The translations under genes and the position numbers were made by a program. 64,000 bases of DNA from assembly GCF_024713945.1 (NCBI RefSeq), contig NC_134677.1, forward strand, positions 1,863,001 to 1,927,000. Direction: 5' to 3'. The stretch is from Dermatophagoides farinae. Its lineage: Eukaryota > Arthropoda > Arachnida > Sarcoptiformes > Pyroglyphidae. A model generated the notes under the pieces. The model saw only the letters and a list, made by a program, of their open reading frames with translations, was not told the origin of the DNA and searched no databases. This document shows, in pieces, positions 50,101 through 56,100 of this stretch; position 1 is the first letter of the stretch; each line of letters opens with the position of its first letter.

Positions 50101-53100
50101 TGTGTGTGTGTGTGTGTGTGTGTATAATGCTTATCTAATTTTTATTAGATAGTCAATGTTTTTTTTTTGATATAAATCCTTTGTATTTGTTTGTTGTTGT
50201 TGTTGTTGTTGTTTGGTGGTGGTGGTGGTAGAGGAGAAGATGATCATTTATGAGATGTTTTTTTTTTCGTACTGCTTTCATTGTATATATTTACACTAAA
50301 ATCAAAATATGATTGTTTTCGATTGTCCTAAATATATTTTGTCTAATAAAAATTTTTTCTTTTTTTTTTATCTTTTTTTTTACAAATTCAATATATTTAT
50401 ATATATAGGAATGTGATTTGTCACAAACTAATAATAAGAATTCAAACACAGTGAACAATATTGCTGGTGAATCAATAACAGAAACTACTGAATCGGAACA
50501 AGAAATAGAACAACAACAGAAACTAAAACAACAGCAACAGCAACAACAACAACAACAAGATGAGATTCAATTATTATATTCAGCATCATATGATTGTTTA
50601 GATAATTTTCCAATCGGTTGTGGTACACATCCTGAATTAGATTATACAAGTCATTATTCATTTCTAGATGATGTTGCCGATCAACAGGATGATGAAATTG
50701 ATGACCTGTTGACATTGATTAATCCTGAATGTATATTAACCGAAGAGGAAGAGAATCGTATTGCCGAAGAAACAAGAATTAAACGAAAATGTATTGCTGA
50801 AATTGTAATTGGTGAACAACATTGTGAAAAGAATAAAAGAAATCCAACTTATGAACAACAATTAAAAGTGAATAATCAAAAAAACCAGCCATTTAATCCA
50901 TTTGAACAATTTGGCTCAAAATCATCTAATATTCAGGTAATAACACCGTCATCGATTGTTGTGAAAGATGAATATTCAAAAAATTCGTCATCTAAACCAA
51001 GTCCATCTGTGACAACATTAAAAACTGTACCGATAACAACAACAGCAGTAACAGCAACAACGACAACTTCGTTATCGTCCACTAACAGTGACATCGTTCA
51101 ATATAATAATAATAATAATCATAATCATAGTAATCGATCCTTGTTATCAATATCTCAATCCTCCTCTACTTCTTCGACAACTAGTGGCAATCATCATCTT
51201 CATTATCATCAGCCACCACAACCACAATCAAATAAAAACTCACTGACTCAACAATTATCTTCGTCTTTGTCGTCAACGTCGTGCACAACATTTTCTAATG
51301 ATAGTGTCTCAGTTGCTGTTTCGTCGAACAATACGATTGAAGAAAAAAAAGAAGAAGAAGGTTCAACTTTGATCCAATCGCAGTCGATATTTACACCATC
51401 ATCATCCATATCGTCGCCAACAACATCATCATCGTCATTGTCAGTGTCGTCTAGTTGCGTTGTAAAAATCATCGACCAACCGTCACCTAACGCTCCGTTA
51501 GGAATTTCTGCATCAAATTTAAATAATAAAAAATTTGCTCTAGTTCCTGTTTCAACAACAACCACAACCGGAACAACAAAACCATCCGTCATATCGATTT
51601 TACCTGATTTGGATAATAAATTACAGAGTGTATCGATTGTAGCCAATAATTCTCATACACAACGATCAATTATAAATAGATTAACACCAAATTCGCTTAT
51701 TCATCAGTCTCAATCTTCAACCATAGCCGTTAATTCGAGCTGTTCACAACCGTCGACATTTTCATCATCAACATCGACAGTTGACACGAAAATCACATCG
51801 ACGACCAATATTTCATCACCTTTAACATCATCATCGTCATCATCATCATCAACATCAACAACAACAACAACAACAACAACAACATCCGGAACTGGCATTA
51901 AAACACATCCATTTGTAATCAAATACCGTAAACCTAATGGTACGATGGCCACAACTTTAGCATTGATGCTTGGTAGTAAATCTGATTCTACAAGTGGTAC
52001 TAGTCCTACGTCTGGTAATCAAAACACATCAAAACAAATGAATCATACACAGAACAAATCACAAGGTGTTGATTTAACCACTATGTTCAACACTGCCGTA
52101 CTAGCCGGATCATTAAATCATTCCATATTGGAAAGTGAAAGTGGAGATAATGGCAATACATTTATTGAAAATGCTGCTGCTGATGCCGACCGATATGTAC
52201 GGGAAACAATAGAGCCATCATCATTATCGTCAACAGCATTTACCAATCAACGTGTCCAACAGATGGCGATACCTCCATATCTATCAAATGTATCAATAGG
52301 AAAAACCGGAAATGCCGCCGGTATAGAATATCCACAAGTAAGAGATTTATCACGTCCATTATCACCAAATTCGGCGAGTGCATTTTTTGCTGCCGCTGCT
52401 GCTGTTTCCGAGATTGATGCCATCAAATTTGAACGTGAATGTGTAAATTGCGGTACACAAAGTACAAGCCAATGGAGAACAAATGGAAATGGACATTATC
52501 TATGTAATGCTTGTGGATTATATAAGAAATATAATGGTGAAGATAGACCACCGGCCAGTATTCAACAACCTCGTAAAAGAACCGTAAGTATCGTTTATAG
52601 ATTTTTAATAAAAAAAAATTGAAAGAAAGAAAAAAATTCTATTATTTCATCATATTTGAAAGAAGAATTGATGTTTTTGACACATTCTTTAATGATTCGG
52701 GTAACAGAAATTATGATTATGATGATTATGATTATTGGAAAAAAAGTGAAACCATCAAACAAACAAAAAAAAATGGCGTATAGGAAAAAGTTTTTCAACT
52801 TTGATGAACGCGAGCTCGTTGTTCCTAAAAATAGCCTGATTTTTTTTCTGTTTTGTTTCGGTATTAGATAGATAAAGTTTATGAGAACACACATCATTTT
52901 TTTTTCTTCAAAAGCAGACCAGAATATACGAATGAAAAAAAAGATGAATATTTTTGAACAAAAAGAGATTAGAGCTTTACTCTATTTTATTATAAACGAA
53001 AAATATACAAGTGAAATAGCACACAAGTTGTTGCATTTGATGTTATGTTTAAAAAAAACCGTATATTGTAAACAAAAAATCCAGGCTTATGTCTTGATTT

Positions 53101-56100
53101 TGTTTTCATCGTCATCATCATCATCATCATCTTTTTGTTGCAACCAAAATGATATCGTCGTTTGGATAAATGGTGCCGTCATTTTTAAGCATTAGATTTT
53201 AGTTTAGTTCGTCAACATTGGAAAAAAGGCAACAAATCTTTCAATGCTCCATCAAACCGAAAACCCATAAACACAAACAAAATATAGCCACCACCATGAT
53301 GCATTTGTTCTTTTCATTTTGTTCACTGGAAAGCAATAATAATATTATTTGCCAGATAATAGCAAATTTTTTGAAGGAATGTTCTGTACTTCTTGTCTAA
53401 AATTGTATTATATATATGTTTTTGTTTAGTTGATTTCTTCGTCGTCTTCTTAAATGATCTCTGTATGATTTTCGATCGCTTGATCGCTGGCTCTATACAT
53501 GTTCTGTGTGTGTGTGTGTGTGTGTGTTGTGCTTGTTGAAAAGATAGATAGGCAGTTCGATCTTTCAAAATAGTTAGTTATATGGGGGGCAATGGAAAAA
53601 AAGTTGATATCATTTGCCAACACTCTATGATGATGATGATAGTGATGAAGAACAAAAAAGCAACAAGAACTTCGATCGATTCTTGTATATATATGTGTGT
53701 GATTATCATTGGAATGTGTGCAATAGAATTTATTCCGTTATTTTAATACGCCGTTAGATTGGAATATCAACAAAATTTGTTCATTTTGATTTTTTTTTTC
53801 TTGATGCTTGTCTCAGAAATTAAATTAAATTCGTTCCTTATTCATTCAAACAACGACTAATTCATTTATTTTATTGTAAAAAATTTTTTTCTTTCTTCCA
53901 TGGAAAATCAATCCTCATCAATACCATGTTCATGGTCATCGATATCGAAATTAAAATCAACCGGAAATGTTGTTACGAAAAATGTTAATCTTAATCTTAA
54001 TGTTGAAACAAAATTGAAGAATCAACAACCGAAACAATGTTCGAATTGTGGGACGTTAACATCATCAATGTGGCGTCGTACAGCCAATAAACAAGTGGCC
54101 TGTAATGCTTGTGGCCTTTATTATAAACTTTATGGTGTCAATCGTCCAGTCGAGATGCGTAAAGATATTGTCTATCCACGAAATCGTTATTCAAAATTAA
54201 CTGGTAATTCAAAGACTGGTAATAAAAATTCTGCTATCACTATCGGCAATGTTGGTGGTACTTCTATGCTGAAATCATCATCACCATTTCATCAAACCGT
54301 CAATGGCCATCATCCTAATTATTCAATGCTTAAACATCCGAATAATTTTGTAGGCAATCTTCAACAATTTAATCAGACTAAATTGCAAACAGAAATGCAA
54401 CAGAATCCTAAAGTTTTCATGATCTCTGGCGGTAATAATAATGAAAATGAAAATTCAAACAAAAACAGTCATTCATCCGATCAGCCAATCTCTCTGATCA
54501 ACAAACAACAACAACCTAGTGCCTTTCATAATCATTCACCATCAATTGTTGATAATCATAATAAAAGTGTCGATAGTCCAACTAATGTCATAAACTCGAT
54601 GGTTAAACAAATATCAAACGCACAAAATTTGATCAAATCATCGAATAATTTAGCTGATGTGAAATCAGATGATTCATCTGATACAATTCATCATCAAAAT
54701 TATGGTGATAATTCTCAGCATGATGATGATCCATCATCATCTATTGAACCACCATCTCAACCTCAGATCAAATCCGAACAAAATAGCGATGATGATGATG
54801 ATGATGTTGATGAACAAGAATTGACAATCAGCGATGAACAATCTGGAGAAATTGCATCATCACATCTTGACAATAACAACGGTCATTCCAATGATGATAA
54901 TAGTGATAATGTAAGTTTTTAAAATATATTCCGAATTAATTTAGCATTAATAATGAAATTATTGTTGTTTTTTTCTGAACAGAATCATCAAAATCTTACT
55001 GCGTTAGCGCCGTTTCAACGGTTATTTGAATTGTCAGCAATGAATGCCAACAATCCTGTTGCTGCCCAAACACAAACAGCTTTGATGTCAGCAATTCTTC
55101 AATCCGGATCGTTTCCATTAGATCCCACCTCTTTACAATCAATGTTCTGTAATCCAGCTTTAGCAGCCATGTTACAAGCATTTAATTTGAATGGATTATT
55201 GAATCAAACGAACCAATCGAATGGTGATACAAATGTGAATATTGTAGGCAATAAAAATGGTGAAAGTGATGATTGTTCTTCATCGAATGGTCATAAATCA
55301 CCGACCGATCATACACAACATGAATGTGCTAATTGTGGTGCATTGGGCAGTATGACTCAATTGAAACGTTATGGATCATTATCTCATTATCTTTGTGGTC
55401 GATGTGCTAATCAAAGAAAATCTTCCGATTCAACAAACAGTTCTCATTCAGGGCGAAAGGTTAGTCTCAATCATATTCTAATCAAAAATTAATTTTTTTT
55501 CATCCATTCTTTTCAGCAGTCGAAACCTCGCGATGTTCAATGCACTAATTGTGGTGTTACACAATCTAGTGAATGGCGGCGAAATGTTCGTGGTGAGATT
55601 GTTTGTAATGCTTGTGGCCTTTATTATAAACTACATAATCGTGATCGACCGATACATATGCGTAGAGATTTTATTGCCCACCGTAAACGTACACCAAATG
55701 TAAGTTTTTTAAACTATTCATTACCTATCATTCAATATTGATTCTTGATTGATTTGAATCTTATATAATAGCATAATTTCAAAAATAAAAAAGTCGAAAA
55801 TGAATCTAGCCAACAAAATCAAAATATTTCAGATATGAAAACGAGTGATGGTAAAGAATCTAATGATTTAATTTCGGCAAACACTATTCGAATAATGACC
55901 GATGGACAGTCAAAAATGTCTTCGTTTTTGGCAAATTCCACAATCGACAATGATGATGACCAACAGCTTACACCATCAAACCAAAATGAAATGAGTGACT
56001 ATTATTCTGAAACTGAAAATACCAATGATAATGATTCTCAATCATCGGAAACGAATCAATGTTCATCGAAACGTATCCGTTCAGATGATGATTTTGATGA

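Follow-up and report, generated by a model that had tools for sequence, protein, structure and literature searches.

Animal GATA transcription factors have been described with two fingers or as reduced forms of such proteins. The linker between the two fingers of canonical members is 29 residues long (PMC9535882), the intron between the N-terminal (N) and C-terminal (C) finger occupies one of two ancestral GATA intron places (PMC2383905), and Drosophila serpent uses alternative exons to give forms with and without the N-finger, SrpNC and SrpC (PMC8844375). Here we describe a locus of the mite Dermatophagoides farinae at which four GATA-type fingers, F1, F2, F3 and F4, lie on the + strand at 52440, 54038, 55325 and 55541 of a 64,000-nucleotide stretch, hereafter the window (C1:1863001-1927000, contig NC_134677.1; the genome comprises 62.4 Mb on 22 contigs). 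The best of 7 group-2 allergen homologues in this genome is a well diverged relative of Der p 2, which fits a mite, probably an astigmatid one. The locus is best explained as a single predicted animal GATA transcription-factor gene that has six coding exons over about 17.1-56.3 kb and contains the N-C cassette in two copies.

The predicted mite gene resembles the canonical two-finger factors (vertebrate GATA1-6 and arthropod grain, pannier, serpent and GATAe) in its finger types and C-finger core, in the zinc ligand spacing of F1, F2 and F4, in the position and phase of the N-C intron and, if F1 and F2 are joined, in a 29-residue linker between them. It departs from them in having two cassettes per gene, one degenerate N-finger and a linker of 25-26 residues between F3 and F4, and in lacking the intron after LHN in F2 and F4. 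Unlike serpent, which has one C-finger exon (PMC8844375), it has two C-finger exons, whose alternative use we infer. With the noncanonical GATAL genes of spiders, including fuchi (PMC9535882), it shares a chelicerate host, a relaxed N-finger spacing (CX2CX17-20CX2C in GATAL2) and, with GATAL3, the sequence ECANCG, also found in F3; the spider proteins have two fingers and are compared here by these features. Rice OsGATA24 is recorded with four GATA domains (PMC4401516), the same count as in the mite gene, and this plant protein is compared by domain count alone. No animal or mite GATA protein with four fingers was found by word searches of the open-licence PMC literature, which does not prove its absence; by title, the other papers retrieved on three or four GATA fingers deal with yeast or fungi and, in one case, adeno-associated virus, and those listed that combine GATA with Dermatophagoides deal with allergy, immunity or further medical subjects. 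If the reading given here is true, the mite product would be, so far as those searches reach, the first GATA protein of an animal described with four fingers.

Four GATA-type fingers in the window

A six-frame regular-expression scan of the whole window for unsplit CX2CX16-20CX2C motifs with CxNC or a final C[NG]xC returned exactly four, all on the + strand and all where the first-pass annotation had placed them: the N-type F1 (52440..52514) and the C-type F2 (54038..54112) and F4 (55541..55615), each CX2CX17CX2C, and the degenerate N-type F3 (55325..55405), CX2CX19CX2C. A degenerate DNA pattern for CNACG had three perfect matches window-wide, which are F1, F2 and F4, and six more at two mismatches. 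The Pfam GATA model matched F1 (48.6 bits, E = 6.2e-13), F2 (49.2 bits, E = 4e-13) and F4 (58.5 bits, E = 4.8e-16), all above the curated cut-off of 26.8, with F4 the strongest match of the four fingers; no Pfam GATA match was found in exon 4, which holds F3. Genome-wide the model has 16 matches, three of them here and the other 13 at seven further places, where two fingers 7.9 kb apart on C5 were counted as one gene; the other GATA stretches of this genome are denoted L009-L016. The presence of four GATA-type fingers at these places is confirmed. Chance motifs are an extremely improbable account of them: it has nothing in its favour except the weakness of F3 taken alone, a chance origin of F1, F2 and F4 is refuted by the Pfam E-values, and the shuffle controls reported below speak against it for F3.

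Finger types and conserved residues

Two finger hidden Markov models (HMMs), built from nine N-fingers and eight C-fingers of the mite's own genome and of human GATA1/3/4, typed F1 as an N-finger (74.6 bits with the N model vs 54.6 with the C model), F2 and F4 as C-fingers (84.8 and 85.1 bits with the C model vs 51.7 and 45.3 with the N model) and F3 as an N-finger (19.0 vs 5.8 bits). These are the types, in the order N-like, C-like, degenerate N-like and C-like, that had been read from the sequence earlier, and both pairs, F1-F2 and F3-F4, run from N-type to C-type.

F3 retains ECANCG and HYLC, while WRR is replaced by KRY and CNACGLY by CGRCANQ, and two residues are added. When F3 was shuffled freely, none of the 1938 shuffles scored (of 2000) reached 19.0 bits, and with the cysteines held fixed 1 of 2000 did. 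A tblastn search of exon 4 against eight own-genome GATA stretches found the N-finger of L009 (E 0.001), and the best PDB matches of exon 4 were GATA N-fingers, at E 0.014 and weaker; against the mite's own genome at E <= 1, exon 4 matched itself only. Because the HMM score, the shuffles and the N-finger matches in L009 and PDB agree, F3 is, by its sequence, a genuine but worn N-finger.

F2 and F4 keep all residues that are invariant across seven aligned C-fingers, WRR and CNACGLY included. In the GATA1 numbering, transferred by alignment, F1 has V and G at the positions of V205 and G208 and R at R216, with T in place of R217 and N in place of D218; V205, G208 and D218 of GATA1 are tied to FOG binding and R216 to palindromic sites (PMC9600848).

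The predicted gene model

Coding potential was measured with a codon score trained on eight other open reading frames (ORFs) of the window, that of exon 1 included, and on 14 ORFs of the other GATA stretches. Exons 2-6 score 0.27 to 0.42 bits per codon in the modelled frame and negatively in both other frames. Exon 2 (50409..52583, +; 725 codons, +0.36) ends just past F1 at a phase-0 donor, ACC/GTAAGT (a slash marks the splice boundary), and in the four-finger model it is followed by intron 2 (52584..54019, +; 1436 bases), the N-C intron of the first cassette. Exon 3, with F2 (54020..54910, +; 297 codons, +0.38), is separated by intron 3 (54911-54982, +; 72 bases, GTAAGT...ACAG, phase 0) from exon 4, with F3 (54983..55459, +; 159 codons, +0.42). 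Exon 5, with F4 (55520..55699, +, starting at 55517 or 55520; 60 codons, +0.27), and exon 6 (55772..56323, +; 183 codons and a TAA stop, +0.36) complete the model. Introns 3, 4 and 5 measure 72, 57 or 60, and 72 bases and have GTAAGT or GTTAGT donors. The acceptor of exon 5 is a tandem CAGCAG at 55514-55519, and one glutamine ahead of F4 may thus be optional.

The modelled frame runs through 1811 codons without a stop and every intron is in phase 0. As F2, F3 and F4 share one open frame across short phase-0 introns, a three-finger F2-F3-F4 protein is predicted with near certainty. A phase-0 intron between the N-like and the C-like finger, as had been proposed for both halves, is seen as modelled, which for the first half presupposes that 54019 is the acceptor used. 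Judged against L009, L011/L012 and L013, this N-C intron stands at the ancestral place between F1 and F2 (acceptor predicted) and between F3 and F4; F2 and F4 lack the other ancestral intron, which follows LHN in the C-finger region and is present in L009, L010 and L012.

A second cassette decaying into a pseudogene, with F3 the first part to be lost, might account for the missing W of WRR, the missing CNACGLY core and the two extra residues of F3. We consider this very unlikely, as exons 4-6 are open and, at +0.27 to +0.42, score much as exons 2 and 3 do, and none of the other fingers matches Pfam as well as F4.

No ATG lies near the start of exon 2. The likely first coding exon is at 17138..18298 (+), a segment of 387 codons from an ATG to the phase-0 donor AAT/GTAAGT, which would be joined to exon 2 over about 32.1 kb. 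It scores 111 bits, whereas the next independent + strand segment from an ATG to a phase-0 donor between 14 and 50.3 kb scores 5.5 bits, in a scan whose training set contained the ORF of exon 1; with that ORF excluded from training, the score is +0.22 bits per codon before GTAAGT and -0.46 after it. The probable first intron (18299..50408, +; about 32.1 kb) would end at ATATATAG/GAATG, an acceptor of mid-range score at 50408. This giant first intron perhaps contains regulatory DNA. Four ORFs of 140 amino acids or more lie in 18299-50408 of this 62-Mb genome, two of them overlapping and all of low complexity by eye.

The join between F1 and F2

The first-pass annotation had placed all four fingers in one gene. 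The two N-C cassettes and the single frame of F2, F3 and F4 stand, while the join of exon 2 to F2 is plausible and unproven; we lean towards a transcript that would join F1 to F2-F3-F4 in one frame, a reading that depends on a single weak splice site. Exon 2 ends in RKRT before GTAAGT, which is the place of the N-C intron in L009, L011 and L013 too (after RRL or RRLS; phase 0 in each), and splicing at 54019 would give an F1-F2 linker of 29 residues. The F3-F4 linker, at 25-26 residues, is shorter than the canonical 29; within the mite's own genome L009 and L010 have 29 residues and L013 and L014 have 30. The sole AG usable as a phase-0 acceptor for exon 3 is that at 54018-54019, which closes an AG-free stretch of 201 bases that follows the AG at 53815-53816 (64 of 10172 AG gaps are as long). 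Within this stretch lie CTAAT (53857-53861) and, extending to 53899, a tract rich in T, an arrangement that would fit a remote branch point from which scanning proceeds to the first AG, at 54018-54019.

Several observations weigh against the join. On an acceptor matrix derived from 23 noisy introns of a relaxed unsupervised run, and used as a rough rank only, the 54019 acceptor (TTGAAG/AATC) scores -2.99, compared with 2.29 to 8.97 for seven hand-verified GATA acceptors and 2.68 to 7.26 for the gene's other acceptors, all of which lie above it, and 86% of 651 background AGs score as high or higher. The donor of exon 2 is at the 9th percentile of the same 23-intron set. The 29-residue linker may moreover be a mild coincidence, with F1 contributing three residues more and F2 three fewer than in the canonical arrangement, and a 30-residue linker is found in two of the four other own-genome genes measured. 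The matrix is itself rough: the acceptors of exons 4 and 5 likewise fall below all 23 training introns, and the AAG end seen at 54019 also occurs in 4 of the 23 training acceptors. A first splice training run (6 introns) and a third (30 clusters, several plainly false) were set aside.

A further point against the join is a possible alternative 5' end at 53900..54019 (+), where an in-frame ATG opens 40 codons that run into F2 and would yield a three-finger form; position 53900, earlier taken as an exon boundary, is this in-frame ATG and no splice boundary. From the ATG onward the segment scores +0.13 bits per codon, against -0.61 for the preceding 13 codons. A score at least as high is reached by 2.1% of 5721 overlapping open non-coding windows, and 30% of 340 coding windows do no better, figures that are suggestive only, as the control windows come largely from the score's own training sequence; in the next frame it scores +0.10, nearly equal to the modelled frame. 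A separate start at 53900 giving F2-F3-F4 alone is on these grounds a serious possibility, and it and the F1-F2 join may both be true.

The shift in coding score at the ATG and the weakness of the 54019 acceptor would also be accounted for by two overlapping or neighbouring genes, one ending with F1, at the stop at 52620-52622 or in an unseen last exon, and the other a three-finger F2-F3-F4 gene starting at 53900 from its own promoter; an AATAAA at 52607 is in keeping with this. We nevertheless regard two genes as unlikely: the GTAAGT donor of exon 2 stands at the ancestral N-C position and the first gene would then lack a C-finger, the other frame of 53900-54019 scores nearly as high, and AATAAA is frequent in DNA of about 29% GC. 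An unseen C-finger exon behind exon 2, a possibility raised in the first-pass annotation, was dismissed: the motif scan of intron 2 found no unsplit C-finger, and since no two-mismatch CNACG match lies between exon 2 and F2, no hidden unsplit C-finger lies there.

Compatible with a single gene is the use of F2 and F4 as alternative C-fingers, in which exon 2 would be spliced to exon 5, skipping exons 3 and 4, to give a two-finger F1-F4 protein, with F2 and F3 appearing in the long form or in a form begun within the intron. As the introns are in phase 0 throughout, the reading frame would survive the skip; the acceptor score is 2.98 or 2.68 at exon 5 and -2.99 at 54019, the F1-F4 linker would be 30-31 residues long (30 is found in L013 and L014), and serpent has alternative exons at its N-finger (PMC8844375). 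However, the DNA offers no positive evidence for the required exon skip and the F1-F2 linker fits equally well or better, and we therefore consider this use of the exons rather unlikely.

Predicted products and possible isoforms

Motifs, finger types, open frames and modelled intron phases are read from the sequence, and from them we infer splicing, isoforms and DNA binding. The longest product of the single-gene model would have 1811 residues, with F1 and F2 29 residues apart, a 380-residue spacer, and F3 and F4 25-26 residues apart. F2 and F4 are each expected to bind a GATA site because the residues shared by the aligned C-fingers are kept, and F1 would be expected to aid binding or to bind a cofactor. 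In F3 the four cysteines are kept; because the conserved core is lost, a structural or protein-contact role is more likely. No FOG partner was found above threshold, one PR-domain match lying below the cut-off and containing an internal stop, and docking of FOG by F3 would be a guess.

With all introns in phase 0 and an in-frame ATG close ahead of F2, the gene may produce more than one form. The in-frame combinations are F1-F2, F1-F4 (linker 30-31), F1-F3-F4, F2-F3-F4 and all four fingers, of which a long four-finger form together with a short F2-F3-F4 form would be the simplest set. That the phase-0 exons of the gene supply two N-fingers and, as alternatives to each other, two C-fingers, mixed by splicing and by an internal start, is a tentative proposal, conceivable but doubtful. 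If it is true, the full form could occupy two GATA sites simultaneously across a 380-residue tether, and F3 would have been converted from a DNA reader to a protein-docking module. The doubled cassette with its decayed N-finger would show a parting of finger roles within one protein, and two C-fingers on one chain would provide a test case for the bridging of paired GATA sites.

Origin of the second cassette and own-genome paralogues

The C-fingers of F2 and F4 are identical at 26 of 53 positions, a value below the identity of each to L009 (30 for F2 and 33 for F4), and they were therefore rejected as recent duplicates; F2 shares 31 positions with L015 and 25 with L010, and F4 shares 26 with L014. 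The best DNA match between the two cassette blocks covers 72 bases of the finger core at 78%, and no inference was drawn from it. A C-finger tree of 11 rows and 53 columns, containing no other arthropod, starred one of eight inner branches and none that places F2 or F4; F2 fell with L014 and L015 (71/52, unsupported) and F4 elsewhere. A sister relationship of F2 and F4 was neither shown nor rejected by the approximately unbiased (AU) test (p 0.302), and constraining F2, F4, L014 and L015 together gave a log-likelihood 0.76 above that of the free tree (p 0.669). Assignment to a GATA class by this tree was abandoned, given its few sites, the long branches of F2 and F4 and the want of support. 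The low F2-F4 identity together with the tree and AU results suggests either that the doubling is old or that the fingers evolve fast. Both origins put forward in the first-pass annotation, duplication of a cassette and fusion of neighbours, still stand; its suggested link to the arthropod GATA4/5/6 cluster found no local support, the gene lying on C1 and the linked GATA pair on C3.

That pair is made up of L009 4221-5102 (C3:6684221) and L010 5752-6012 (C3:6662752), which lie on the same strand at a distance of about 22 kb. One of the two genes is canonical, the other lacks the N-C intron, and together they may be what is left of the arthropod GATA456 cluster. L014 (5755-6030) and L015 (5080-5899) are related noncanonical GATA genes; L014 has both fingers in one exon and no N-C intron, and in L015 the N-C intron is displaced and lies in phase 1. 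The four-finger gene resembles these two in that F2 is nearest to L015 (31/53) and groups, unsupported, with both, and differs from them in that L014 and L015 have two fingers each. A 66-base intron in phase 1 interrupts the N-finger of L013 (C2:4437578-4437886, - strand) directly behind CVNC. L016 (C11:63853-63939, - strand) consists of one isolated, divergent GATA-like finger whose score, 26.4 bits, or 27.1 with its frame neighbours, is close to the cut-off. No relatives were confirmed for exons 3 and 5 in the genome_contigs collection or for exons 4 and 5 in viral_contigs, neither collection being meant for animals.

Neighbouring genes

Upstream of the GATA gene, Pfam identifies an ABC1-type atypical kinase (718-1731, +), a C2H2 zinc-finger protein (4975-5736, -), an SMC protein (8494-12012, +) and a MUS81-like ERCC4 nuclease (12144-13769, -). 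Two open frames on the - strand run towards the GATA gene from its 3' side, one at 57310-58689, with a Pfam DEC-1_C match below the cut-off only, and one at 58693-59319, which has no Pfam match and a hydrophobic, signal-like start.

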